A DNA stretch of 38,638 bases from Clostridia bacterium (GTDB lineage: Bacteria; Bacillota; Clostridia; TANB77; RGIG9151). The stretch is from positions 1 through 38,638 of the forward strand of contig JAFSUW010000008.1 in NCBI GenBank assembly GCA_017450465.1, given 5' to 3'. How positions within the stretch are numbered: position 1 is the first letter of the stretch; every line of letters starts with the position of its first letter. Below, piece by piece: positions 7,451 through 20,939 of the stretch. A program made the translations under genes and the position numbers. The notes under the pieces are model-generated. The model did not search any database. It was not told where the DNA came from and worked only from the letters and a program-made list of their open reading frames with translations.

Positions 7451-9109
7451 ATGAAAAAAATAATTTGCTCATTAATTTTAGGTGCAATATTAATTTCTAC
7501 TTCATTTGCTTTTACTGATGTTCCAAAAACACATTGGGCATATGAGGCAATTAATAATATGCAAAATAAAGGAGTTGTAGCGGGTTTTTATGATAATACA
7601 TTTAAGCCAGATGATGTAATAACAAAGGAACAACTAGCATCAATAATAACTTTGGGGTTAAATCTATCAGGTGAGACTTCTAATACGTTTGCGGATGTTT
7701 CGCAAAATAGATGGTCAAATATTTATATAAGTGCAACACGTGACTATTTTACAACGTACACTATTAATGGGAAGTTATATTTCGAACCAGAAAAGCCTGT
7801 TACTCGTGAAGAAGCAGCAACAACTTTTGTAAAGGCATTAGGTTTAGAAAAAGATGAAGTAGATTTATCAATATTAAATGAGTTTGATGATAGACAAGAT
7901 TTTACTAATGAAAAGTATGTAGCAATTGCATTTAAGAATGGAGTAATGAAGGGCAAAGTAGGTTATTTTGACCCAAATGCCACTTTAACAAGAGCGGAGA
8001 TAGCAGCAATTATGAATAATATATTAAGTAAAAATGAAGAGAACAAATCAACATATTCAGATTTTGATTTCTTAAAATATTTACCAAAAGATAAAAACTA
8101 TATGGCATCACCATTTAGTATAAAAATGGCAATGATGATGCTTGCAAATGGTTCATCTGGCACTACAAAAAATGAAATACTAAATGCATTTGGTATTTCT
8201 GATATAGATAGTTATAATGAGTATGCTAAAAACACAATAGAAAGTTACAATAATGATGCTGATGTAAAATTAAATGTAGCAAATTCTATATGGATTAATA
8301 AAGATATTGTTGGAGTTTTGGCAGAGTTTAATGAGAGTTATAAAGAACTAATAGAAAGCAATTTTGATGGTACTGCAAATACAGTAGGAAATAGTAATGC
8401 TGTAAGTAAAATTAATAGCTGGTGTAGTGAAAAAACTAATGGCAAGATAAATAAAATAATTAATTCGTCAGATTTTGCATCTGCATTAGTTAATGCGATT
8501 TACTTTAAAGGTTCTTGGGCAGAACAGTTTAATAAAAGTGCAACGCAAAAAGATAAATTTATGACTATAAAAAACAAAGAAGTTGAAAAAGATTTTATGC
8601 ATAAAACAGACCACTATGGTTATTACGAAGATGAAACTATGCAGCTTGTATCAGTTCCATACAAAGGTTATAAAACGAGTATGTATATTGTACTACCAAA
8701 AGTTGATGAATCAGATTTAAGTTTTGAAAACGCAATTAATAATATGAAAAATAGAAGAGTAGCACTTTCTATTCCAAAGTTTAAAATAGAGTATGAAAAA
8801 AGTTTAGTAGATGTATTAAAAGAAATGGGTGTAAAAAGAGCATTTGATCCTAGTGGTGCAGAAATTAGGGATACAATGTTTATAAATGTATTAAACAATA
8901 TATATGTAAGTGATGTTATTCATAAGACATATATAGATGTAGATGAAGAAGGAACAGAAGCTGCAGCAGTAACAGCTATAATAATGAAAGCAACAGCAGC
9001 ATATAACCCAGAAGAACCTATTGAATTTACTGCAGATAGACCATTCATATATTTCATACGTGATAATGAAAGCGGAGCAATTTTGTTTATGGGTAGATTA
9101 GTTGAATAA
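7451..9109 (+). CDS. Secreted S-layer-homology serpin (serine/cysteine protease inhibitor)
   Basis: A 552-residue surface protein. Signal peptide is residues 1-20 (cut after TSFA). Three SLH modules cover about 22-195 (FTDVPKTHWAYEAI, FADVSQNRWSNIYI, FDDRQDFTNEKYV) and should hold the protein to cell-wall polymers. A complete serpin domain runs from about 203 to 552 (MASPFSIKMAMMMLANGSSG, NAIYFKGSWAEQF, FTADRPFIYFIRD). The reactive loop has an inhibitory-type hinge, E499-E-G-T-E-A-A-A-V-T, small residues free of proline, so it should insert on cleavage. By alpha-1-antitrypsin spacing, P1-P1' is near T515-A516, predicting elastase- or subtilisin-like targets. It probably defends surface proteins against host or competitor proteases. 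Own promoter; start ATG 7451 after AGGGAGGT. Confidence 0.93.
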   Translation: MKKIICSLILGAILISTSFAFTDVPKTHWAYEAINNMQNKGVVAGFYDNTFKPDDVITKEQLASIITLGLNLSGETSNTFADVSQNRWSNIYISATRDYFTTYTINGKLYFEPEKPVTREEAATTFVKALGLEKDEVDLSILNEFDDRQDFTNEKYVAIAFKNGVMKGKVGYFDPNATLTRAEIAAIMNNILSKNEENKSTYSDFDFLKYLPKDKNYMASPFSIKMAMMMLANGSSGTTKNEILNAFGISDIDSYNEYAKNTIESYNNDADVKLNVANSIWINKDIVGVLAEFNESYKELIESNFDGTANTVGNSNAVSKINSWCSEKTNGKINKIINSSDFASALVNAIYFKGSWAEQFNKSATQKDKFMTIKNKEVEKDFMHKTDHYGYYEDETMQLVSVPYKGYKTSMYIVLPKVDESDLSFENAINNMKNRRVALSIPKFKIEYEKSLVDVLKEMGVKRAFDPSGAEIRDTMFINVLNNIYVSDVIHKTYIDVDEEGTEAAAVTAIIMKATAAYNPEEPIEFTADRPFIYFIRDNESGAILFMGRLVE

Positions 9110-10722: not shown

Positions 10723-11040
10723 ATGGAACTTAATGAATATCAAAAACTTGCTATGGTTACTAAAAAAGAATGGGGGAACACAAATGCAGAATTAATAGAT
10801 GTAGGTCTTGGCATAACTGGAGAAGCAGGTGAAGTAAGTGATTTAATAAAGAAGTATCATGCTGGTGTTAAAGAACTTGATATGGAGAGTTTAAAACTAG
10901 AATTAGGAGATGTTTTATGGTATGTAGCAGAAGCTTGTGATGCACTTAACATTTCTATTGATGAAGTAGCAAATATGAATATTGAAAAACTAAGAAAACG
11001 TCATGGAGATAAATTTAATAATTACGGGAATAGAGGATAA
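10723..11040 (+). CDS. MazG-like nucleoside triphosphate pyrophosphohydrolase
   Basis: A 105-residue all-alpha NTP-PPase that hydrolyses a nucleoside triphosphate to the monophosphate and PPi, often house-cleaning of abnormal nucleotides. Metal ligands are visible as E34-x-x-E37 (GEAGEVSDLIKK) and E60-x-x-D63 (ELGDVLWYV), the two-helix signature of the superfamily. The start is ATG 10723 with GGAG at 10711; the open frame to the left has no ribosome site. It lies 3 bp before the ABC-F gene, so the two are co-transcribed. Substrate cannot be told from sequence. Confidence 0.85.
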   Translation: MELNEYQKLAMVTKKEWGNTNAELIDVGLGITGEAGEVSDLIKKYHAGVKELDMESLKLELGDVLWYVAEACDALNISIDEVANMNIEKLRKRHGDKFNNYGNRG

Positions 11041-11043
11041 AAA

Positions 11044-12897
11044 ATGCTAATTAAATTAAATAACGTAAAGAAAAGTTTTGGTATTGAAGAAGTTTTAACT
11101 GATATAAATCTTGAAATAAACGAAGGCGAAAGAATAGGTTTACTTGGGGTAAATGGTGCTGGAAAATCTACACTTTTAGATATCATTACCGGAAATATAA
11201 ATTATGACAGTGGTGAACTTTTTATTTCAAAAGATATAACAATAGGTTACTTAAAACAAGTAAATGCACTTGATTCAAATAATACCATAGATACTGAGAT
11301 TCGTTTGGTTTTTAAGAACTTATATGATATAGCAACTAAGTTAGAAGAAATGCGCAATAATAATGATTTTAGTAAAGAGTATGACAAACTTAATACATAT
11401 TTTGAAAGCAGGGATGGTTATAACATAGATACTAAAATTAATATAGTATTAAATGGTATAGGTTTTAAGGACTATGATAGAAATACATTAGTTAGTAAAT
11501 TAAGTGGTGGAGAAAAAAATAAACTTGCGTTTGCAAAATTACTTTTACAAGAACCCGATTTACTAATACTTGATGAACCGACAAACCATTTAGACTTTAA
11601 TGCTTTATCGTGGCTTGAAGAATATTTACTAAAATATAAAGGTGCTATTTTAGTTGTGTCACATGATAGATATTTTTTGGATAAGATAGCTGAAAACATA
11701 TGTGAAATTGAGAATGGAAAACTTACAAAGTATAGGGGTGGATATACAAGTTTTATAAAGCAAAAAGAAGAACGACTTGAGTATGAATTAAAAGAGTATG
11801 AAAAGCAGCAAGAAGAGATAGAAAAGATGCGTGAATTTGTTGCAAAAAATCTTGTGAAATCTGCATCTACTAATAGTGTTGGTAGTCGTGTAAAAGCATT
11901 AGAAAAAATGGAAAGGTTAGAAAAACCAAAACCGGTTACTGAAAAAATACGATTGAAATTTGATTTTGATATAGAGCCGTTTAAGAATGTTTTAAGCGTG
12001 GAAAAACTTACTGTATGTGTTGGTGAAAATAATAAAGTAATTTGCAATAATATTAATTTTTCTGTGATGAAAGAAGAAAAGGTTGCGATTATAGGTAGCA
12101 ATGGTATTGGTAAATCTACTTTTATTAAAGCGATACTTGGAAAGATAAAATCAGAGGGAAGAATAAGATGGGGCGATAATGTAAAGACCGCTTATTTTTC
12201 TCAGGAGAATGAAGAGTTAAATTTTAATCATACTGTTATTGAAGAGTTAAATAATATTTTTCCAAGAATTTCAGAGCAAGTTATAAGAAATACATTAGCA
12301 CTTCTTCTTATAAAAGGAGAAGATGTTTATAAAAAAATAGGTAGTTTATCTGGTGGTGAAAGGGCAAAGGTAGTTTTTACTATTATGATGTTAAAACGAC
12401 CTAATGTTATGATTATGGATGAGCCAACTAACCATTTAGATTATAAGTCTAAAGAGATTTTAGAGAAGGCACTTATGGATTATAAGGGTACACTTATTAT
12501 GATTTCACATGACAGGTATATGTTAAATCGTGTGCCTACGAAAATAATTGAAATGTTTAGCAACAGATTTGAGGTTTATGATGGTGGATATGATTATTAT
12601 GTATCGCATAAAAGAGTTGATGAAGGCGAGAAGGTTATAGATAAACCGAAGAATACGGATAATGCATATTATCGTAGCAAGGCACAAAGGTCGGAGGAGA
12701 TAAAGAAGAAAAACAGGATAAAAGAGCTTGAAAAGAGGATGGAGGAGCTTGGGAACCGCGAAAAAGAAATTATGAATCTTATGTCAGAGCCAGATGTGCT
12801 ATCGGATTATATTAAACTTAATGAACTGAGTTTGGAGCTTGTGAAGATAAAAGAAGAAAATGATATGTGCATGGAGGAGTGGGTTAACAATAGTTAG
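11044..12897 (+). CDS. ABC-F family ATPase (ribosome-associated)
   Basis: 617 residues, two ABC cassettes and no membrane segment, as in the ABC-F translation factors that act at the ribosomal exit site. Cassette 1 has Walker A GVNGAGKST (35-43), signature LSGGEKNKLAFAKLL and LDEPTNHLD. A charged interdomain linker (about 235-300, KQKEERLEYELKEYEKQQEEIEK) follows. Cassette 2 has GSNGIGKST (351-359), LSGGERAKVVF and MDEPTNHLD. The C-terminus is a coiled coil (RIKELEKRMEELGNREKEI). It could relieve ribosome stalling or give antibiotic protection; subfamily assignment needs a tree. Three bases after the MazG-like stop; ribosome site GAGGAT. Confidence 0.92.
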   Translation: MLIKLNNVKKSFGIEEVLTDINLEINEGERIGLLGVNGAGKSTLLDIITGNINYDSGELFISKDITIGYLKQVNALDSNNTIDTEIRLVFKNLYDIATKLEEMRNNNDFSKEYDKLNTYFESRDGYNIDTKINIVLNGIGFKDYDRNTLVSKLSGGEKNKLAFAKLLLQEPDLLILDEPTNHLDFNALSWLEEYLLKYKGAILVVSHDRYFLDKIAENICEIENGKLTKYRGGYTSFIKQKEERLEYELKEYEKQQEEIEKMREFVAKNLVKSASTNSVGSRVKALEKMERLEKPKPVTEKIRLKFDFDIEPFKNVLSVEKLTVCVGENNKVICNNINFSVMKEEKVAIIGSNGIGKSTFIKAILGKIKSEGRIRWGDNVKTAYFSQENEELNFNHTVIEELNNIFPRISEQVIRNTLALLLIKGEDVYKKIGSLSGGERAKVVFTIMMLKRPNVMIMDEPTNHLDYKSKEILEKALMDYKGTLIMISHDRYMLNRVPTKIIEMFSNRFEVYDGGYDYYVSHKRVDEGEKVIDKPKNTDNAYYRSKAQRSEEIKKKNRIKELEKRMEELGNREKEIMNLMSEPDVLSDYIKLNELSLELVKIKEENDMCMEEWVNNS

Positions 12898-13149: not shown

Positions 13150-13351
13150 ATAAGTTAAAGGAAATAAATATAAGTGAACATTTGGGCGAGAGTTTGACAT
13201 TTCTCCAAAACAGTTTTTGCCGGTCAAAAAAACACGATGTTTTTTTGAGCGAAGACAAGACACGGATGTCTTGTGTGAGCGACCGGCAATCGTTTTGGCA
13301 AGAAATGTACAAACGAAGCCCAGTGAACGTTATTTATTTTCTTTAACTTAT
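13150..13351. repeat. Large imperfect palindrome 2, related to palindrome 1
   Basis: ATAAGTTAAAG (13150-13160) pairs with CTTTAACTTAT (13341-13351). Inside, AGTGAAC, TTTGGGC, CATTTCT, CAAAAC and GCCGGTC (13219-13225) find complements in GACCGGC (13281-13287), GTTTTGG, AGAAATG, GCCCA and GTGAACGTT. GACAAGAC-ACGGAT-GTCTTGT is an inner hairpin. The arm order (CACT, CGTTTGT, CATTT, CCAAAAC, GGTCG) repeats that of palindrome 1. Confidence 0.7.
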
Positions 13352-13397: not shown

Positions 13398-13426
13398 TTG
13401 TAAATTTGTGCTATATATGATAGAAT
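13398..13426 (+). promoter_or_regulatory. Promoter of the corrinoid operon
   Basis: TTGTAA (13398-13403), 17 bp, TAGAAT (13421-13426). The start of transcription should fall near 13433, just before the riboswitch. The -35 overlaps the right copy of the 17-bp direct repeat. Confidence 0.7.
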
Positions 13427-13432
13427 GCATTA

Positions 13433-13610
13433 CGTAAACAATAAGGAAATCTAGTGCGAATCTAGAGCAGTCTTACCTCTACTGTAAGAAGGGTTACCTT
13501 TAAGTCAGAATGCTTATGTTTACCAGTTGTTTTTCTTTTAGGTGGAAAGAAACGAGTAAGGCGGGTTGCCTTTATTTTGCGTGTAAGCTACCTAAAAGGT
13601 AGTTTTTTTG
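13433..13610 (+). promoter_or_regulatory. Cobalamin riboswitch with terminator/antiterminator
   Basis: The segment ATAAGGAAATCTAGTGCGAA (13441 on) continues TCTAGAGCAG, ACTGTAAG and AAGTCAGAATGCTTATG (13502-13518). This follows the order of the adenosylcobalamin riboswitch core: GGAA, GTG-AA stem, GC-G-C/ACTGTAA, and the AGTC-GGA B12 box, in diverged form. The expression platform is visible. CTACCT-AAA-AGGTAG plus seven T (13588-13609) is a terminator, and CTTTTAGGTGG (13535-13545) can instead pair with CTACCTAAAAG (13588-13598) as antiterminator. High corrinoid should favour termination of the downstream operon. Confidence 0.75.
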
Positions 13611-13626
13611 TTTTGGAGTGAGTATA

Positions 13627-14484
13627 TTGCAAAAAGATGAGTTTTATAAAATGCATCCTGTTGTAAATATTGCGTATTTTATAGTGGCAATTTTGCTTAC
13701 TATTTGTTTTTTGCATCCAGTGATTATTTTTATATCATTTGTTTTTGCTACTTTGTACTTAATGTATAACAAAGTAAATTTGCATATAGTATCATTTTTA
13801 ATAATGCTAATATGCGTTATACTTATAAACCCACTAGTTAATCACCAAGGTGTTACAACCTTATTTTACATGTTTTCGGGTAACCCGATAACATTAGAAT
13901 CAATTTTATATGGCGTTTTTGCTGGTTTTATGATTATTAGTGTTATTTTGTGGTTTAACTGTTATATGGTTATTGTCACTTCAGACAAATTTATTTATTT
14001 GTTTAGTAAAATTAGTAAGAAACTGTCTTTGATGTTTTCTATGATTTTACGATTTGTACCACTTTTAGTTGGTAGATTAAAGGAATGCTATAATTATCAA
14101 AAATTAGTGACAAAAAATAAGTTAAAAGTAGTAACCAATGCGTTTTATATGACGTCCTCTTGGGCACTTGAAAATGCTATTATCACTTCAAAGTCATTAA
14201 AAGCAAGAGGTTATGAATTAAAGCACAGAAGTAGTTTTAACATGTACAAATTTTCAACAAGAGATAAAGTTATGTTGTTAGTTATAATTTTACTTTTTTG
14301 TGTTTTGTGTTTCTTTTATGTGAATGAAATGCTTTATATAAGATATTTTCCATCGATAGTTATTAATACGCAAGTTATAGGAATTTTAGCAAGTGTTTTG
14401 TTATTTTCATTACCTTTTTTGGTTAATTTATATTATTTTTTGATGTATAAGTTTGGAGGAAACAAGTGGAGCAGTATAAGATAA
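13627..14484 (+). CDS. ecfT: ECF transporter transmembrane subunit EcfT
   Basis: The scaffold membrane subunit of an energy-coupling-factor importer; it couples the ATPases to a vitamin-specific S component. About 285 residues with hydrophobic segments near the N-terminus, in the middle and at the C-terminus. The long coupling-helix region holds the typical Ala-Arg-Gly motif, A193-R194-G195 (SKSLKARGYELK), which docks onto the ATPases. I choose TTG 13627 because GGAGTG (13615-13620) is well spaced for it; GTG 13618 would overlap its own ribosome site. It is the first gene after the cobalamin-type riboswitch, and its end overlaps the ATPase gene by 19 bases. Confidence 0.88.
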   Translation: MQKDEFYKMHPVVNIAYFIVAILLTICFLHPVIIFISFVFATLYLMYNKVNLHIVSFLIMLICVILINPLVNHQGVTTLFYMFSGNPITLESILYGVFAGFMIISVILWFNCYMVIVTSDKFIYLFSKISKKLSLMFSMILRFVPLLVGRLKECYNYQKLVTKNKLKVVTNAFYMTSSWALENAIITSKSLKARGYELKHRSSFNMYKFSTRDKVMLLVIILLFCVLCFFYVNEMLYIRYFPSIVINTQVIGILASVLLFSLPFLVNLYYFLMYKFGGNKWSSIR

Positions 14485-15959
14485 AAAAAATGAGTTTTAA
14501 GTATAATATGAATAACAAAGAAACCTTAAAAGATATTGATTTAACAGTAAATAAAGGTGATTTTGTAACTATATTTGGTAAATCTGGTTCTGGTAAATCA
14601 ACACTACTTAGTTTGTTAAAGCCGCAAATTGCACCTGTGGGTGTACTAAAAGGAGATATTTTATTTGAAGGCAAAAAGTTGGAGGATATTGATAAAAAGG
14701 ATTCTGTACTAAAAATTGGTTTTGTTTTTCAAGACCCAGAAGCACAATGTGTTACTGATAAAGTTTATCACGAACTTGCATTTGGCCTTGAAAGCTTGGG
14801 AGTTGATAGTAAAACTATAAAACTTCGTGTATCAGAAGTATCAGATTTTTTTCATATAGATGAGTTGTTTTACAAAGATATAAATAAAATTTCGGGTGGG
14901 CAAAAACAACTTATAAATCTTGCATCGATTATGGTTATGAAACCAGAAGTAATAATATTAGATGAACCAACAAGTCAGGTGTCGCCAATTATTGCACGTG
15001 AATTTTTAAATACACTTGGCATGATAAATCGCGAGTTTGGTACTACGATAATACTTAGTGAGCATCGCCTTTTTGATGTAATTAAGTTTTCCAATAAATT
15101 AGTTTTAATGGATGAAGGGCGTATAATTGAAAGTAGTGATGTAGATACAGTATGTAAAAAGCTTTATAAAACTGAATATTTTGAACTTTTGCCTGAGGTC
15201 GTAAAAATTAGTTTAACTGAGACGGAAGGTAAAATTGTTGCTCACGATATTGTTGAATGTAAAAATGTTATAAAGAAAAATAAAATCGTTGAGAAAAAGC
15301 AGATAAAAGATGAAGGGGATATAGTTAAGTTAAAAGATATTTGGTTTAAGTATAAAGATGTTGATGTCTTAAGAGATTTAACTATCGATATAAAGAAAAA
15401 TAGAATTACAAGTATAATTGGACAAAATGGTTCCGGCAAAAGTACGCTATTATTACTTATAAGTGATATAATAAAAAATTATAGAGGCAAAAAGAGTAAA
15501 GCATTTAACAAAGCACTTATGCTACCACAAAATGTAAAAACTTTATTTACCAAAGATACAGTAAAACTTGAATTTGATGGTGTGAGTGGCAAAGATGAAG
15601 TGATAAAATTATTTGAACTAGAAGATTTATTTGATAAACATCCATTTGATTTAAGCGGTGGCGAACAGCAAAAAGTTGCTATCGCAAAGTTACTATTAAA
15701 TAAACCAGATCTTTTATTACTTGATGAGCCAACCAAGGCAATGGATGCTATTTTTAAGAAAAAATTCGGTGATAAATTAAAAGACATAGCACAAAGTGGC
15801 GTAACAGTGGTTTTAGTTACGCATGATATAGATTTTGCAGCAAGTATTTCAGATTATATGGCACTTATGTTTAATGGTGAAATAATTACCAGTAACACAA
15901 CAGATGAATTCTTAAACGGCAATATGTTTTATAACACAATTAGAAATAGATTAATATAG
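14466..15959 (+). CDS. ECF transporter ATPase, fused EcfA-EcfA' (two ABC domains)
   Basis: A 497-residue energiser with both ECF ATPase halves on one chain. Half 1 has Walker A GKSGSGKST (38-46), Q-loop FVFQDPEAQCV, signature ISGGQKQ (142-148), ILDEPTSQ and switch LSEHRL. Half 2 has Walker A GQNGSGKST (319-327), signature LSGGEQQKVAIAK, LLLDEPTKAMD and VTHDID. GTG 14466 with GGAGG 6 bases upstream, overlapping ecfT, indicates translational coupling. The fused form beside a dedicated EcfT and S component suggests a group I (dedicated) system, here for corrinoids judging by the riboswitch. The sequence of half 2 is somewhat shortened before its signature. Confidence 0.9.
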   Translation: MEQYKIKKMSFKYNMNNKETLKDIDLTVNKGDFVTIFGKSGSGKSTLLSLLKPQIAPVGVLKGDILFEGKKLEDIDKKDSVLKIGFVFQDPEAQCVTDKVYHELAFGLESLGVDSKTIKLRVSEVSDFFHIDELFYKDINKISGGQKQLINLASIMVMKPEVIILDEPTSQVSPIIAREFLNTLGMINREFGTTIILSEHRLFDVIKFSNKLVLMDEGRIIESSDVDTVCKKLYKTEYFELLPEVVKISLTETEGKIVAHDIVECKNVIKKNKIVEKKQIKDEGDIVKLKDIWFKYKDVDVLRDLTIDIKKNRITSIIGQNGSGKSTLLLLISDIIKNYRGKKSKAFNKALMLPQNVKTLFTKDTVKLEFDGVSGKDEVIKLFELEDLFDKHPFDLSGGEQQKVAIAKLLLNKPDLLLLDEPTKAMDAIFKKKFGDKLKDIAQSGVTVVLVTHDIDFAASISDYMALMFNGEIITSNTTDEFLNGNMFYNTIRNRLI

Positions 15960-15973
15960 AAAGGATAGCCAAA

Positions 15974-16657
15974 ATGAGTTCCAAAAGTAAAATACTTTTT
16001 ACGTTAATATCGTTACTCACTATACTAATAGGTGTATTTGTATTTAAGGACCAACAATACTACCTTATTAGTAGTATACTTATAATATATACACTCATTA
16101 TGGTTATGAGTGGCTTTGAAAATAAGAAGAATACTACGTCAAAACTAGTTACAATATCGGTATTGATTGCACTTGCAGTTGCGGGTAGAATTGGTTTTTC
16201 ATTTTTGCCACAGTTTAAACCGGCGGCTGCAATTATAATAATTATTGCAGTATGTTTTGGGGCAGATATTGGTTTTATGAGTGGTGCGATGACGGGATTT
16301 ATTTCAAATTTTTTCTTTGGGCAAGGCCCATGGACGCCGTGGCAAATGTTTTCGCTTGCACTAATTGGTTTATTTGCTGGATTAATTTTTTATAATAAAG
16401 ATATGAAACATAGATTGTTATGGCTTTGCATATATGGTGCTATTTCCACAATTATTATATATGGTGGTATAATGAATCCAGTGTCGGTTATGATTGTGGA
16501 ACCGAGGCTTACCGTAGAAGCGGTAATGGCAAGTTATGCAGTTGGCATACATTTTGATATAATACATGCGATTGCAACAGTAGTTTTTTTAAGTGTTCTT
16601 GCAATCCCTATGATAAAACTAATTAATAGAGTAAAATTAAAGTATGATTTGCTATAG
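15974..16657 (+). CDS. ECF transporter substrate-binding S component, predicted for cobalamin
   Basis: 227 residues. Two N-terminal hydrophobic segments precede a six-helix S-component-like core (LVTISVLIALAVAGRIGFSF, PAAAIIIIIAVCFGADIGFMSGAMTGFISNFFFGQGPWTPWQMFSLALIGLFAGLIF and further). S components bind the vitamin in the membrane with high affinity and hand it over when docked on EcfT. The specificity is inferred only from the riboswitch and the transcobalamin-like neighbours. It may correspond to CbrT-type cobalamin S components, but I cannot verify that by alignment. Fourteen bases after the ATPase; GAAAGGAT ribosome site. The next gene follows at 14 bp. Confidence 0.82.
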   Translation: MSSKSKILFTLISLLTILIGVFVFKDQQYYLISSILIIYTLIMVMSGFENKKNTTSKLVTISVLIALAVAGRIGFSFLPQFKPAAAIIIIIAVCFGADIGFMSGAMTGFISNFFFGQGPWTPWQMFSLALIGLFAGLIFYNKDMKHRLLWLCIYGAISTIIIYGGIMNPVSVMIVEPRLTVEAVMASYAVGIHFDIIHAIATVVFLSVLAIPMIKLINRVKLKYDLL

Positions 16658-16671
16658 AAAGGAGTAAAAAG

Positions 16672-17595
16672 ATGAAAAGAACAGTTTCAATATTTATAGT
16701 TTTTATAATGCTTTTTAGCTTTTCTTTCGCAACCGTTACTGAAACAAGAAGTTATATATTAAAAACGGTTACAAACCCAAAAGTTTCATCAACAAGTGGT
16801 GAATGGGCAGTACTTGGCGTTACAAGATATGAAAAGAATAAAGATTTTGCAAATTCATATTACAAAAATTTGTGTAACACGTTAAAAGATAAAAAAGGAG
16901 TTTTAAGTGACACAAAATATACCGAGTATGCAAGAGTGGTAATTGCACTAAGTAGTATAGGGAAAAATCCTTATAATGTTAATGGTTATAATTTAATTGC
17001 AAAACTTTGTGATACTGATAAAGTAAAGAATCAAGGTATTAATGGTGCGATATTTGCATTGATTGCACTTGATACTAGAAACTATAAAGTAAATGAAAAT
17101 GTTAGAGAAGAATATATTAAATATATCTTAAATAAAGAAATTTCAGGTGGCGGTTTTTCTCTAACTGGTGAGAAGCCAGATATAGATGTTACGTCTATGG
17201 CAATTTGTGCATTATATAAATATCGAAGTGATGAGAAAGTAAATGCCGTAATACAAAGAGCGGTTAAGGTTTTGAAGTTAAGTAAAGCAACATACGTTGA
17301 AAGCATTGCTCAAGAAATAGTGGCGCTTTGCTCATTAAACGATGCAAATAATAAAGATTATATAAATACTTTAGTAACAAGTTTAAGTGCATATAAATTA
17401 AGTGATGGTTCTTATAAACATAGTATTAATGATGAAACGAGTAATTTGATGTCAACAGAACAAGTCTTATATGCATTAGTCGCTTATGATAGATTTACAA
17501 ATAATAAAAAATTTTTGTATGATATGACTGATGTGGAAATAGAATTAGATACGTTAAGGGTACTATTAAAATCGTTTTTACCAATTTTATATTAA
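16672..17595 (+). CDS. Secreted alpha/alpha-toroid protein, intrinsic-factor/transcobalamin alpha-domain-like
   Basis: 307 residues. Signal peptide is about 1-20 (IFIVFIMLFSFSFA). The mature part is a series of helical hairpins of the prenyltransferase/squalene-cyclase-like toroid type: SGEWAVLGVTRYEK, EYARVVIALSSIGKN, GAIFALIALDTRNY, and the diagnostic GGGFSLTGEKPDIDVTSMAICAL with D170-I-D-V-T. QEIVALCSLND and STEQVLYALVAYDRF follow. This is the fold of the N-terminal domain of animal cobalamin carriers. Those carriers pair it with a C-terminal DUF4430-type domain, and exactly that domain is encoded 11 bp downstream as a separate protein. Predicted to form half of an extracellular corrinoid-binding pair. 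No lipobox or wall anchor, so it is free or held by a partner. Confidence 0.8.
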   Translation: MKRTVSIFIVFIMLFSFSFATVTETRSYILKTVTNPKVSSTSGEWAVLGVTRYEKNKDFANSYYKNLCNTLKDKKGVLSDTKYTEYARVVIALSSIGKNPYNVNGYNLIAKLCDTDKVKNQGINGAIFALIALDTRNYKVNENVREEYIKYILNKEISGGGFSLTGEKPDIDVTSMAICALYKYRSDEKVNAVIQRAVKVLKLSKATYVESIAQEIVALCSLNDANNKDYINTLVTSLSAYKLSDGSYKHSINDETSNLMSTEQVLYALVAYDRFTNNKKFLYDMTDVEIELDTLRVLLKSFLPILY

Positions 17596-17606
17596 AGGAT
17601 GATTAG

Positions 17607-18074
17607 ATGAAAAAACTTTTATTTTGCTTTATATTGATATTCTTTATAATGGGCTGTAATGAAAAAGAACCTACTTTAACTTGTACGATATCGATTAATT
17701 GCAGCACTATTCTAGAAAATATTGATAATTTTAATAAAGATAAATTAGAAGTATTACCAAGTGACGGTGTTATTTATGAGGAGCAAGAAGTAAAGTTTTA
17801 CGAAGGAGAAAGTGTATTTGATGTATTAAAAAGAGAAACAAAAAATAATCAGATACATTTTGAATTTTCCGTTACACCGATATATAATTCTGTGTACATA
17901 GAAGGCATAAATAACATATATGAATTTGATTGTGGCGACCTTTCAGGTTGGATGTATAAAGTAAATGGTGTTGCACCAAATGTATCATGTTCTGAATATA
18001 AATTAAATGATAATGATACAGTAGAAGTACTTTATACATGTAACTTGGGGAAAGACATAGATATTAATTTTTAA
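17607..18074 (+). CDS. DUF4430 lipoprotein, transcobalamin beta-domain-like
   Basis: 155 residues. Lipoprotein signal with lipobox FIMG-C17, so the mature protein is membrane-tethered. The rest is one DUF4430 (transcobalamin C-terminal-like) domain: CTISINCSTILEN, FYEGESVFDVLKRETK, YIEGINNIYEFDCG, then SGWMYKVNGVAPNVSCSEY with S113-G-W-M-Y117 and the closing strand DTVEVLYTCNLGKD. In animal carriers this domain closes over one face of cobalamin. Downstream of the toroid gene in a riboswitch-controlled operon, it is probably the second half of a split corrinoid-binding protein that delivers to the ECF importer. Confident on family; ligand inferred. Confidence 0.88.
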   Translation: MKKLLFCFILIFFIMGCNEKEPTLTCTISINCSTILENIDNFNKDKLEVLPSDGVIYEEQEVKFYEGESVFDVLKRETKNNQIHFEFSVTPIYNSVYIEGINNIYEFDCGDLSGWMYKVNGVAPNVSCSEYKLNDNDTVEVLYTCNLGKDIDINF

Positions 18075-18089
18075 TAGGAGGCATAAAAA

Positions 18090-20939
18090 ATGAGGAACAA
18101 AATTGTAGCACTTTTTGTAGCAATCTTTTTACTATTTAGTACTGCTTCATTTGCAACTGATAGTGTAAATGTAACAGTCACGATAAAAGATTTGACTGAA
18201 ACTTTAGTTGATGAAGTAGAATTAAATGTGCAAAAAGAAGATTTAACAAAGTACGCAGGGGAAGGTTATGGTATAAACAATACCGAAACCGAAGATGGCA
18301 TAACAGCCCTTCATGCAGTAGTAGAGGCAATAAGATATTACTTAATCAATGAATGCGATGTGGAAGAACCAGATGATACGACTGTCGCAAGTATGATTAA
18401 TGTAAATAGTGGCTATATGTCAATGCTAATGGGAACAGAAGATTCGTATGCTGCAGACTATTCAAGTGGCGACTCATGGATGTATTTGTACAATGGTGAG
18501 ATGGCACAAAATGGTGTCGCTAGTCAGTTAATAGAAGATGGTGATGAACTAGAATTCTATTATAGTCATTGGGATATGTCAGATTTCGAGGATCCAGAAG
18601 ACCCAGAAGACCCAGAAGATCCAGAGGAACCAGAAGAAAGAAACTATGAGGCAGAATGGGGAAGTCGTCGTGGTGACGAAGATGGTATAACTCATACTAA
18701 AACACCAAGAACTATTGATGAAGCGGAAGAAGCATGGGTTACAAAAGTTACAAGTTCATGGGTTTATGCAGGACCAATTATTGCTGAAGGCAATATTTAT
18801 ACAGCAGCAGGAGATACATTATATAAAATAGATAAAGAAACTGGAGAAATTTTAAGCGAAGTAGATTTATCAAATTCAATAAATAGTATTGAATCTTTAA
18901 CATATGGCGATGGAAGAATTTTTGTTCCAGAAGCAAATGGTGTAGTTGAATGTTATGATGCTTTAAGTATGAAACTTTTATGGACAAGTGATAGTGCGTC
19001 CATTGGCACACAGTCTTTAGTTGCACCATTATATGAAGATGAAGTTTTGTATACTGCAACTTATGGTACAAATGGTGGAGCATTTTATGCTATTGATGTG
19101 AAAAATCCAGATGAATTTTTATGGGAATTTACAGATGGTAGCAATAATTTTTATTGGAGTTGCCCAGTAATTAGTGGTAATTATATATTGTTTGGTAGTG
19201 ATAACAACACAGTATATTCATTGAATAAAGCGACAGGTGAAGAAGTAGACAGTTTTGAAACAGATGGCAAAGTTCGTGCTGGTATTGTAAAGAGTGGAAA
19301 TTATTTATACTTTACAACACAAGCAGGAAGCATTTATAAAGTACAACTTAAATCAGATGGAACAATAAATGAAGATAGCGTAGTAAGTAATAAAATTTAT
19401 GAAGGTGCAACATCTAGTACAAGTACACCAGTTATATATGGTGGAAGAATTTATGTGGGTGCAACAGGTAGTGAGAAAGTAGTTAGTGTTATTGATGCAA
19501 GTACATTAGAAACCATATATACAGTGCCAATGAAAGCATATCCACAATGCTCAATATTACTTAGTGATGGATATGATGGCAAAGTATATATTTATTCAAC
19601 ATATAATGGAAAACCAGGCGGAATTAGTGTAATTGAAGATTTTGACGGAAACACTGAAGCCATAGTAAGTGATTTATATATACCAGAAGAAGAACAATGG
19701 TGTATATGTAGCGTAATAGCAGATAGTGAAGGCAATTTATATTATAAAAACGATTCGGGTAATTTATATAAAATTTCACCTAAAGAAGTAATAGAAGAAG
19801 TAAGTAAAGTAGTTACATTTAACGTAGAACCAGATGAATATGAAATAGTAGTTACAAGTAGTGATAATACTACTGTTGAGGCAAACGAAGATGGTACATT
19901 TACATTAAATAATGGAACATATAAATATTCTATAAGTAAAGATGGCTATAAAGATGAAAAAGGCACAATTTCAGTAGAAGATGATGAGCCATTAGCTATT
20001 GATGTAAAATTAACCAAAAAATCTACTGGTGGTTCAGGCTCATCAAGTTCGACTAAAACAGTAACATTTAAACTAGTAGGCGATAAAATACATAACAATA
20101 AAACTATTCATACATATACCAATACTAAAGGTGCACCAGTATGGGTAAAAAAGACAACTGTAGAATATAAAGATAATATGACTGCTATGATTTTATTACT
20201 TGAGATGGCTAAAAAATATGGCTTCGAAGTTGAAGCAGATGATGGATACGTTTCAGGTATTGGAATGAATAATGAGTTTATTTATGAGAAAGATAATGGA
20301 GCAAATAGCGGTTGGATGTATAGAGTAAACGATAAAATAGCAGAAGTTTCAGCAAGTGAATATAAACTAAAAAAAGATGATAGTGTAGTTTGGTATTATA
20401 CAGATGATTATGAAAAAGAAACAGAAAAAACATCAACTGGTAGTAGTAGCAGCACTAAAACTGATGATAAAAAAGAAGATGAACCTAAAAAAGTAGAATT
20501 ACCATTCGAGGCAGACGAATCGAAAGTAGTTATTGATATGGACAAAGATCATTGGAGTTATAATGCTATGGTTTATTGCGTGGCACGTGATTTAATACCA
20601 AATGATGTAAGTCATGATGAAAGAGTATTATTAAGCGATATACGTAAAATTCAAAAATTATTTGGTTTAGATATACCTGAAGAAAATTATAGCAAATTTG
20701 TAACTAGAGAAGAAATGATGTATGAATTATCAAAATGTATAAAATTTGATAAGAAAATAGAAGCAGAGAAATTTGTTGATGATGATTTAATCAATGACAA
20801 ATATAGAGAAGCAATATATGATTTAAGAGCTAGAGATATAGTAAAAGGTGTTGGAAATAATACATTGTTGCCTACCGAATATGCTAAATTTGCCGATTTT
20901 TCTGCACTATTAAAAGAAATGTTTGAATACTTAAAATAA
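18090..20939 (+). CDS. Surface protein: DUF4430, PQQ-type beta-propeller, DUF4430 and SLH-like domains
   Basis: 949 residues. Signal peptide 1-22. A first DUF4430 domain covers about 26-165 (GDSWMYLYNG, W130). A repetitive EDP linker (166-185) follows. A PQQ-like beta-propeller spans about 210-570, with blades such as NIYTAAGDTLYKIDKETGEIL, YILFGSDNNTVYSLNKATGEE and RIYVGATGSEKVVSVIDAST. A small PEGA-like beta domain (574-642) and a Ser/Gly linker come next, then a second DUF4430 domain (657-775, SGWMYRVND at 740-748). An SLH-like region (about 809-949, MDKDHWSYNAMVY and FVDDDLINDKYREAI) probably anchors it in the wall. Last gene of the corrinoid operon; AGGAGG ribosome site. Role inferred: outermost corrinoid collector. 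The propeller ligand is unknown. No terminator seen after it. Confidence 0.88.
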   Translation: MRNKIVALFVAIFLLFSTASFATDSVNVTVTIKDLTETLVDEVELNVQKEDLTKYAGEGYGINNTETEDGITALHAVVEAIRYYLINECDVEEPDDTTVASMINVNSGYMSMLMGTEDSYAADYSSGDSWMYLYNGEMAQNGVASQLIEDGDELEFYYSHWDMSDFEDPEDPEDPEDPEEPEERNYEAEWGSRRGDEDGITHTKTPRTIDEAEEAWVTKVTSSWVYAGPIIAEGNIYTAAGDTLYKIDKETGEILSEVDLSNSINSIESLTYGDGRIFVPEANGVVECYDALSMKLLWTSDSASIGTQSLVAPLYEDEVLYTATYGTNGGAFYAIDVKNPDEFLWEFTDGSNNFYWSCPVISGNYILFGSDNNTVYSLNKATGEEVDSFETDGKVRAGIVKSGNYLYFTTQAGSIYKVQLKSDGTINEDSVVSNKIYEGATSSTSTPVIYGGRIYVGATGSEKVVSVIDASTLETIYTVPMKAYPQCSILLSDGYDGKVYIYSTYNGKPGGISVIEDFDGNTEAIVSDLYIPEEEQWCICSVIADSEGNLYYKNDSGNLYKISPKEVIEEVSKVVTFNVEPDEYEIVVTSSDNTTVEANEDGTFTLNNGTYKYSISKDGYKDEKGTISVEDDEPLAIDVKLTKKSTGGSGSSSSTKTVTFKLVGDKIHNNKTIHTYTNTKGAPVWVKKTTVEYKDNMTAMILLLEMAKKYGFEVEADDGYVSGIGMNNEFIYEKDNGANSGWMYRVNDKIAEVSASEYKLKKDDSVVWYYTDDYEKETEKTSTGSSSSTKTDDKKEDEPKKVELPFEADESKVVIDMDKDHWSYNAMVYCVARDLIPNDVSHDERVLLSDIRKIQKLFGLDIPEENYSKFVTREEMMYELSKCIKFDKKIEAEKFVDDDLINDKYREAIYDLRARDIVKGVGNNTLLPTEYAKFADFSALLKEMFEYLK

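Follow-up and report, generated by a model that had tools for sequence, protein, structure and literature searches.

Organisation of the locus

Positions 13424-20939 of the window, by which we mean the whole 38,638-nt stretch of DNA analysed here, hold a leader and six tightly packed genes, all on the + strand:

13398..13426, + strand: promoter-like site TTGTAA-17-TAGAAT with a TG extension (consensus scan, 9/12)
13424..13560, + strand: cobalamin riboswitch aptamer, AdoCbl type RF01482 (42.7 bits, below the gathering score of 50)
13537..13596, + strand: antiterminator helix, in which 13537-13545 (UUUAGGUGG) pairs with 13588-13596 (CUACCUAAA)
13585..13605, + strand: intrinsic terminator, a 9 bp stem (13585-13593/13597-13605) followed by a U run
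13618..14484, + strand: EcfT (CbrV-like) transmembrane coupling protein (BLASTP homology)
14466..15959, + strand: fused EcfA-EcfA' ATPase (CbrU-like; ABC_tran twice, 3e-50)
15974..16657, + strand: S component, CbrT family (PDB homology to 6fnp)
16672..17595, + strand: exported alpha/alpha-toroid protein, intrinsic-factor alpha-domain-like (Pfam, AF2, Foldseek)
17607..18074, + strand: DUF4430 protein with a lipobox-like IMGC, the beta-domain-like partner (PF14478, 1.9e-18)
18090..20939, + strand: surface protein, DUF4430 - PQQ/BamB-type propeller - DUF4430 - degenerate SLH-like end (PF14478, 1.9e-22; PQQ_2, 1.4e-17)
18414..18566, + strand: first (partial) DUF4430 domain of the surface protein (35.2 bits)
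20181..20402, + strand: second DUF4430 domain of the surface protein (59 bits)

Intergenic spacings of -19 (an overlap of EcfT and EcfAA), 14, 14, 11 and 15 bp, with the next gene beginning 48 bp after the sixth, confirm the six-gene operon, which an initial annotation had described as six same-strand genes with gaps of 15 bp or less. Of the gene identities given there, domain searches upheld the fused EcfA pair, S component and DUF4430, and AlphaFold the toroid fold; the SLH region is sub-threshold. GGAG directly precedes 13618, so that translation of EcfT may begin at TTG 13627 instead of GTG 13618.

The leader

The aptamer is the sole match to RF01482 in the genome, with E-values of 7.9e-7 locally and 9.7e-7 over the full 1.47 Mb, and its 42.7 bits fail the gathering cut-off of 50 bits curated by Rfam for this family. 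A search of the whole genome with RF00174 returned zero matches, and the assignment of the leader consequently rests on RF01482. The proposal of a cobalamin-riboswitch-like leader has therefore gained a covariance-model match that is significant genome-wide, but one that lies below the cut-off and has no RF00174 counterpart. The expression platform bears out the mutually exclusive terminator and antiterminator of the initial annotation: the 9 bp antiterminator helix (-10.7 kcal/mol) and the 9 bp terminator stem both require positions 13588-13593. The stability of the leader's minimum free energy fold is unremarkable (z -0.43). The score of the promoter-like site is by itself no better than chance, but the site is positioned at the start of the aptamer.

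The importer

No Pfam model matches EcfT, which was identified through homology to annotated EcfT proteins (27% BLASTP identity to that of L. curvatus, 35% to a relative from the same order) and whose product has several hydrophobic segments. The fused ATPase matches the ECF_ATPase model TIGR04520 at 3e-84, and Walker A, signature and Walker B motifs are readable in both halves, so that the EcfT and two motif-bearing ATPase domains that define CbrVUT are all present. As a single sequence the S component matches only 6fnp (ECF-CbrT) in the PDB, with an E-value of 2.4e-7; as a profile against all of the PDB it matches 6fnp at 1.1e-28, the next entry being 4hzu_S at 0.19. Its homology is thus to CbrT, with no such relation to the S components for other vitamins. 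The ECF importer proposed earlier is upheld, as a dedicated one, and the corrinoid substrate proposed with it is supported by the CbrT homology, the riboswitch and the cobamide-salvage neighbours of related loci.

This half of the operon is not new, homologous clusters having previously been named CbrV/CbrU/CbrT. A CbrVUT cobalamin ECF transporter is said to have been predicted by Rodionov in 2009. The ECF-CbrT/CbrVUT system (Santos 2018, PMC5997447) has in common with the window operon a CbrT-family S component, EcfT, two ATPase domains and a B12 genomic context. The window operon, however, has a dedicated ECF module with fused ATPases, whereas in L. delbrueckii the module is shared and its ATPases are separate, and the window operon adds exported toroid and DUF4430 proteins, of which we found no description in that context. 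Another counterpart is the cbrV-cbrU-cbrT cluster of the Lactobacillus plasmid pMF1298-5 (PMC6722938), in which genes for EcfT, a fused ATPase, an S component, a toroid-like protein and DUF4430 run on one strand next to cblT/cblS/cobS; its identity to the window proteins is weak (25-34%), and the passages of that paper that we consulted assign its toroid-like and DUF4430 genes no B12 role. The initial view that the combination was undescribed is overstated: the importer and locus type are already known as CbrVUT (PMC6722938; PMC5997447), and many Firmicutes carry this gene set, which is therefore not unique.

The exported proteins

The less-known half of the operon is the exported toroid, the DUF4430 lipoprotein and the DUF4430/beta-propeller protein. 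In the open-access journal literature we found no paper giving bacterial DUF4430 or toroid proteins a role in B12 capture; should cbrS of the nrdJ-cbrS-cbrT-pduO cluster of L. delbrueckii encode a DUF4430 protein, this component would already have a name.

The toroid protein has a hydrophobic segment at its N-terminus and is weakly seen by Pfam (Prenyltrans, E 5e-5, below the cut-off); AlphaFold (AF2) models it with confidence as an alpha/alpha toroid (pLDDT 87.7). Foldseek searches with this model recovered toroid folds including transcobalamin and intrinsic factor; taken alone, the model fits prenyltransferases and cyclases as well as transcobalamin and does not discriminate among toroid folds. 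Squalene cyclases rather than intrinsic factor rank first when the toroid profile is searched against the PDB, and the toroid sequence alone does not, therefore, identify the family. The eukaryotic cobalamin-binding protein model PF01122 gave no match to the window toroid and matched 2 of 22 bacterial toroids (best E 7e-4). The N-terminus of the DUF4430 lipoprotein reads MKKLLFCFILIFFIMGC. Searched by sequence against the PDB, the DUF4430 profile did not match transcobalamin, so that this link rests on fold comparison.

Fold comparison was also applied to a relative in which toroid and DUF4430 are naturally fused. PDB ranks 1-15 for the AF2 model of this fusion are transcobalamin, intrinsic factor and haptocorrin, with E-values of 8e-8 to 6e-6, above all cyclases, and the transcobalamin beta domain alone (5no0) gives a TM of 0.75. 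Rigid-body superposition on transcobalamin is poor (rmsd 11-19 Å), and a closed clamp is unsupported. Like the bacterial pair, the vertebrate carriers combine an alpha/alpha toroid with a DUF4430-type beta domain, and the matches span both domains of the fusion; the fold-level likeness to a single binder is thus seen in the relative, whereas the window modules lie on two separate exported proteins that, unlike the vertebrate carriers, would be wall or membrane bound, lack an endocytic receptor and are predicted rather than established binders. Fused bacterial relatives also differ from the vertebrate proteins in having two membrane helices between the modules. The intrinsic-factor-like pairing of toroid and DUF4430 and the extracellular placement of these proteins, both proposed in the initial annotation, are supported.

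The surface protein had been described as DUF4430/propeller/SLH, and the PF14478 and PQQ_2 matches agree with its first two parts; its single SLH match (16.9 against a cut-off of 20.8 bits, E 0.0064) leaves the anchor below threshold. Its likeness to Bacteroides BtuG, a surface-exposed beta-propeller in B12 uptake (PMC6977713), is by analogy only, and the same holds for the earlier description of the operon as a counterpart of Bacteroides surface B12 capture. Unlike BtuG, the window propeller is of BamB/PQQ type by sequence, with neither BtuB nor an outer membrane; BtuG is absent among the 60 listed of its 65 PDB matches, its solved relatives being designed propellers and BamB, and no BtuB-like gene was found among the larger ORFs of the window.

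Related loci

A search with the toroid yielded 20 loci in Clostridia and Bacilli. DUF4430 adjoins or is fused to the toroid in every one, and a CbrT-like S component is present in 14. An Rfam cobalamin riboswitch at gathering score lies upstream in seven (L013, L015, L019, L022, L023, L025 and L027), with no other cobalamin match in the 384 kb scanned. One of the 20, L014, runs on into cbiR-cobT-cobU-cobS, and Lactobacillus relatives adjoin cblT/cblS/cobS or BMC/eutP genes (PMC6722938). In Collinsella, an AdoCbl-II-like leader lies 179 bp upstream of a DUF4430-propeller gene.

Cobalamin use in this organism

Targeted searches of the window genome (94.4% complete, 1.47 Mb) for B12-related families found no PF02310, adenosyltransferase (PF01923, PF02572), class I/II RNR, RTPR or QueG, and hence no known B12 consumer. 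The complete chain for B12 envisaged in the initial annotation is odd in this setting. Proteins with a B12-binding domain are encoded in 17 of the 19 other toroid-bearing genomes. An Enterococcus S component and DUF4430 pair adjoins queG, which had prompted QueG as a candidate B12 user here; it was set aside with the search above.

Proposed function and alternatives

We consider it likely that the locus is a cobalamin-repressed corrinoid uptake operon in which an intrinsic-factor-like exported clamp is joined to a CbrT-type importer, a reading that rests on the homology of the leader, its exclusive folds, the gene order, the family of the S component, the fold of the relative's fusion and the conserved linkage. 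At low intracellular corrinoid the antiterminator would form in the leader and the operon would be transcribed. The exported toroid and the DUF4430 lipoprotein would then act as two halves of a clamp holding corrinoid outside the membrane, the larger DUF4430/propeller protein may help to present it in the wall, and it would be passed to the S component and driven inwards by EcfT and the fused ATPase, until intracellular corrinoid closed the riboswitch and stopped transcription. Binding by the exported proteins, handover, the identity of the ligand and the response of the switch are the parts that we infer, and the interpretation in the initial annotation is, overall, partly supported.

How scarce B12 is captured before import is poorly known for Gram-positives, which lack an outer membrane, and a 2020 review (PMC6977713) lists no more than BtuFCD variants and a single ECF transporter. 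A capture module of intrinsic-factor type under riboswitch control would supply named candidate genes and a functional reading for DUF4430, could explain B12 competition both in the gut and on plasmids from fermented foods, and would provide the vertebrate B12 carriers with a bacterial relative, from which they may derive. The comparison suggests that surface capture of B12 in such bacteria, here a gut-type Gram-positive, resembles that in animals. More tentatively, and at somewhat less than even chances, Gram-positives may widely use a wall- or membrane-tethered two-module corrinoid clamp, homologous to the intrinsic factor, transcobalamin and haptocorrin of animals, under B12 riboswitches and feeding ECF-CbrT, with the animal carriers descending from such proteins.

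It seems unlikely that the operon imports corrinoids while its exported products are non-binding wall or adhesion proteins, DUF4430 and the toroid being merely common surface modules. The toroid fold is generic, and neighbourhoods without an ECF importer do exist, DUF4430, toroid and propeller proteins occurring together in this way in Vescimonas; but the constant linkage of DUF4430 to the toroid, the riboswitches that begin seven toroid loci, the absence of DUF4430 from the window genome outside the operon and the best folds of the fusion model, all B12 binders, argue for capture. We regard as very improbable a substrate other than cobalamin, such as another tetrapyrrole or a precursor (heme, cobinamide or cobyrinate, a lower-ligand base), given the cobalamin riboswitches, the cobT/cobU/cobS/cbiR neighbours and an S component closest to CbrT. 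Heme ECF importers are known, and LhaSTA (PMC7299338) is, like the window operon, a dedicated tetrapyrrole ECF operon beside wall proteins; it differs in being Fur-regulated, with a heme-binding S component and no cobalamin riboswitch, and heme uptake of this type is rejected here on the riboswitch and neighbour-gene evidence. Cobinamide is also taken up by CbrT (PMC5997447), but would remain a corrinoid.

That none of the B12 enzymes sought was found in the window genome would suit a different substrate, and would also suit a recent or decaying acquisition without a physiological role. Among 240 other genomes of the order, a single one has the S component, there split into two reading frames, which also fits such an acquisition. 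We nevertheless give a decaying acquisition very little credence, as all six window genes are intact and tightly spaced, with ribosome-binding sites, and the base composition of the operon is that of its flanks.

Results and Discussion

The operon studied here is a corrinoid-uptake system of the known CbrVUT type, combined with a predicted capture module that resembles intrinsic factor. The gene coordinates bear out the six genes of the initial annotation in their position and single orientation, with intergenic spacings of -19, 14, 14, 11 and 15 bp and the next gene 48 bp beyond.

Features of the operon (window coordinates)
13424-13560, plus strand, AdoCbl aptamer (RF01482)
13537-13545/13588-13596, plus strand, antiterminator
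13585-13593/13597-13605, plus strand, terminator stem
ending at 20939, plus strand, in order: EcfT, fused EcfA-EcfA' ATPase, S component, exported alpha/alpha-toroid protein, DUF4430 protein, 949-aa surface protein

EcfT, which matches no Pfam model, was identified through homology to annotated EcfT proteins. The DUF4430 protein bears a lipobox-like signal, and the 949-aa protein consists of a PQQ/BamB-type propeller flanked by two DUF4430 domains; the SLH anchor proposed for it was not upheld, the single match at the C-terminal end being sub-threshold. A genome search found DUF4430 confined to the operon.

The cobalamin riboswitch previously proposed for the leader was recovered with one Rfam model: RF01482 matches the aptamer (42.7 bits, local E 7.9e-7), its sole match across the 1.47-Mb genome (E 9.7e-7), but the score falls under the curated threshold of 50 bits, and the leader is missed by RF00174. 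The antiterminator pairing (9 bp, -10.7 kcal/mol) would tie up the upstream strand of the terminator hairpin, and the leader therefore has the order of a transcription-terminating "off" switch, presumably responsive to its ligand.

The S component had been inferred to serve B12 uptake, and sequence comparison agrees. Its only match among all PDB chains is 6fnp (E 2.4e-7 with the single sequence; 1.1e-28 with a five-sequence profile, runner-up 0.19), the S subunit of the vitamin B12 transporter ECF-CbrT, for which cobalamin and cobinamide transport has been demonstrated (PMC5997447). Homologous clusters on Lactobacillus plasmids adjoin cobS and cblT/cblS, or BMC/eutP genes, and one had earlier been annotated as CbrV-CbrU-CbrT (PMC6722938). 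At L014 (6464-9640), a related locus, the order Toroid-DUF4430-EcfT-EcfAA-S-EcfT is followed by CbiR-like, CobT/CobT-like, CobU-like and CobS-like genes. In Enterococcus gilvus a CbrT-like S and DUF4430 pair comes after queG, whose product is a cobalamin enzyme. Three loci carry single-frame fusions of the EcfA-EcfA' ATPases with the S component (L016 12508-14988, L017 12509-14989, L013 12868-16152), an unexpected arrangement given the view that S components dissociate from the ECF module in the course of transport.

Searching 84,980 genomes for the toroid alone returned 20 loci, in Clostridia and Bacilli, in which DUF4430 and S were scored with profiles derived from the initial set of operons. 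DUF4430 adjoins or lies within the toroid protein in all 20, and a CbrT-like S component is present in 14, several of the other six stopping at a contig edge. In seven loci an Rfam cobalamin riboswitch that reaches gathering score precedes the genes on the same strand (124 bits in L015, 87 in L022, 81 in L023, 77 in L025, 65 in L013, 49 in L019 and 39 in L027); these are the only cobalamin matches in the 384 kb scanned, and the chance of such placement at random is ~5e-11. The L023 riboswitch lies 1.2 kb upstream, and short reading frames separate that of L027 from its operon. Wall anchoring recurs by different means, as the riboswitch-controlled L015 operon has a class D sortase (11000-11575) between an LPXTG-ended DUF4430-toroid protein and a DUF4430 protein, and the L022 toroid-DUF4430 protein includes three SLH domains.

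In vertebrate transcobalamins the C-terminal domain is itself a DUF4430 domain (PMC4350170). The AlphaFold model of the window toroid is confident (pLDDT 87.7) and of generic toroid fold, matching transcobalamin and intrinsic factor and also farnesyltransferase and cyclases. Judged from the models, a relative's natural toroid-(two membrane helices)-DUF4430 fusion (L031, pLDDT 80.6) is more telling on fold kinship: transcobalamin, intrinsic factor and haptocorrin account for all 15 of its top PDB matches (E 8e-8 to 6e-6), with alignments that span both domains and outrank every cyclase, and TM is 0.75 against the transcobalamin beta domain alone (5no0). A closed clamp is a candidate only, because the two domains together superpose poorly as a rigid body (11-19 Å). 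Sequence-level links are thin, PF01122 matching 2 of 22 toroids (best E 7e-4). Of the combination claimed as novel, the importer is already known (CbrVUT); as far as the open-access literature shows, the conserved riboswitch-linked toroid/DUF4430 module is new as a putative extracellular B12 binder.

The propeller protein's role is the least certain part of the operon, since DUF4430-propeller proteins are also encoded at loci that lack an ECF importer. In Collinsella (L037 4846-8908) such a gene adjoins a second DUF4430 gene, and an AdoCbl-II-like leader 179 bp upstream, just under the cut-off (32.9 against 36.5 bits), points to B12. In Vescimonas (L038-L039) the gene for a related propeller protein has DUF4430, toroid and MoxR/DUF58/transglutaminase genes as neighbours, and the riboswitch search of these clusters was negative.

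The window's own genome (94.4% complete) has a B12-type importer alongside no detectable corrinoid user among the families tested: a B12-binding domain, cobalamin adenosyltransferase (two families), class I/II ribonucleotide reductase, RTPR and QueG were not found. The B12-binding domain is also absent from the one operon-bearing relative in the order, and present in 17 of the 19 other toroid-bearing genomes. Either the consumer lies in missing sequence, or it belongs to another family than those tested, or the corrinoid is used in a novel way. Among 240 further genomes of the order, one has the CbrT-like S component; the operon's distribution there is thus patchy, probably through horizontal gain or frequent loss. 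In that relative (L004 7549-8245), as in Secundilactobacillus (L020 6092-6825), two overlapping reading frames encode the S component in place of one, owing to either sequencing error or decay.

Just upstream of the operon lie two TwoAYGGAY RNAs (RF01731; 12965-13105, minus strand, and 13185-13321, plus strand), both exceeding the gathering score, inverted and facing each other. Further upstream (7451-9109), translation inspected by eye joins an SLH-like N-terminus and a serpin-like C-terminal part in one protein.
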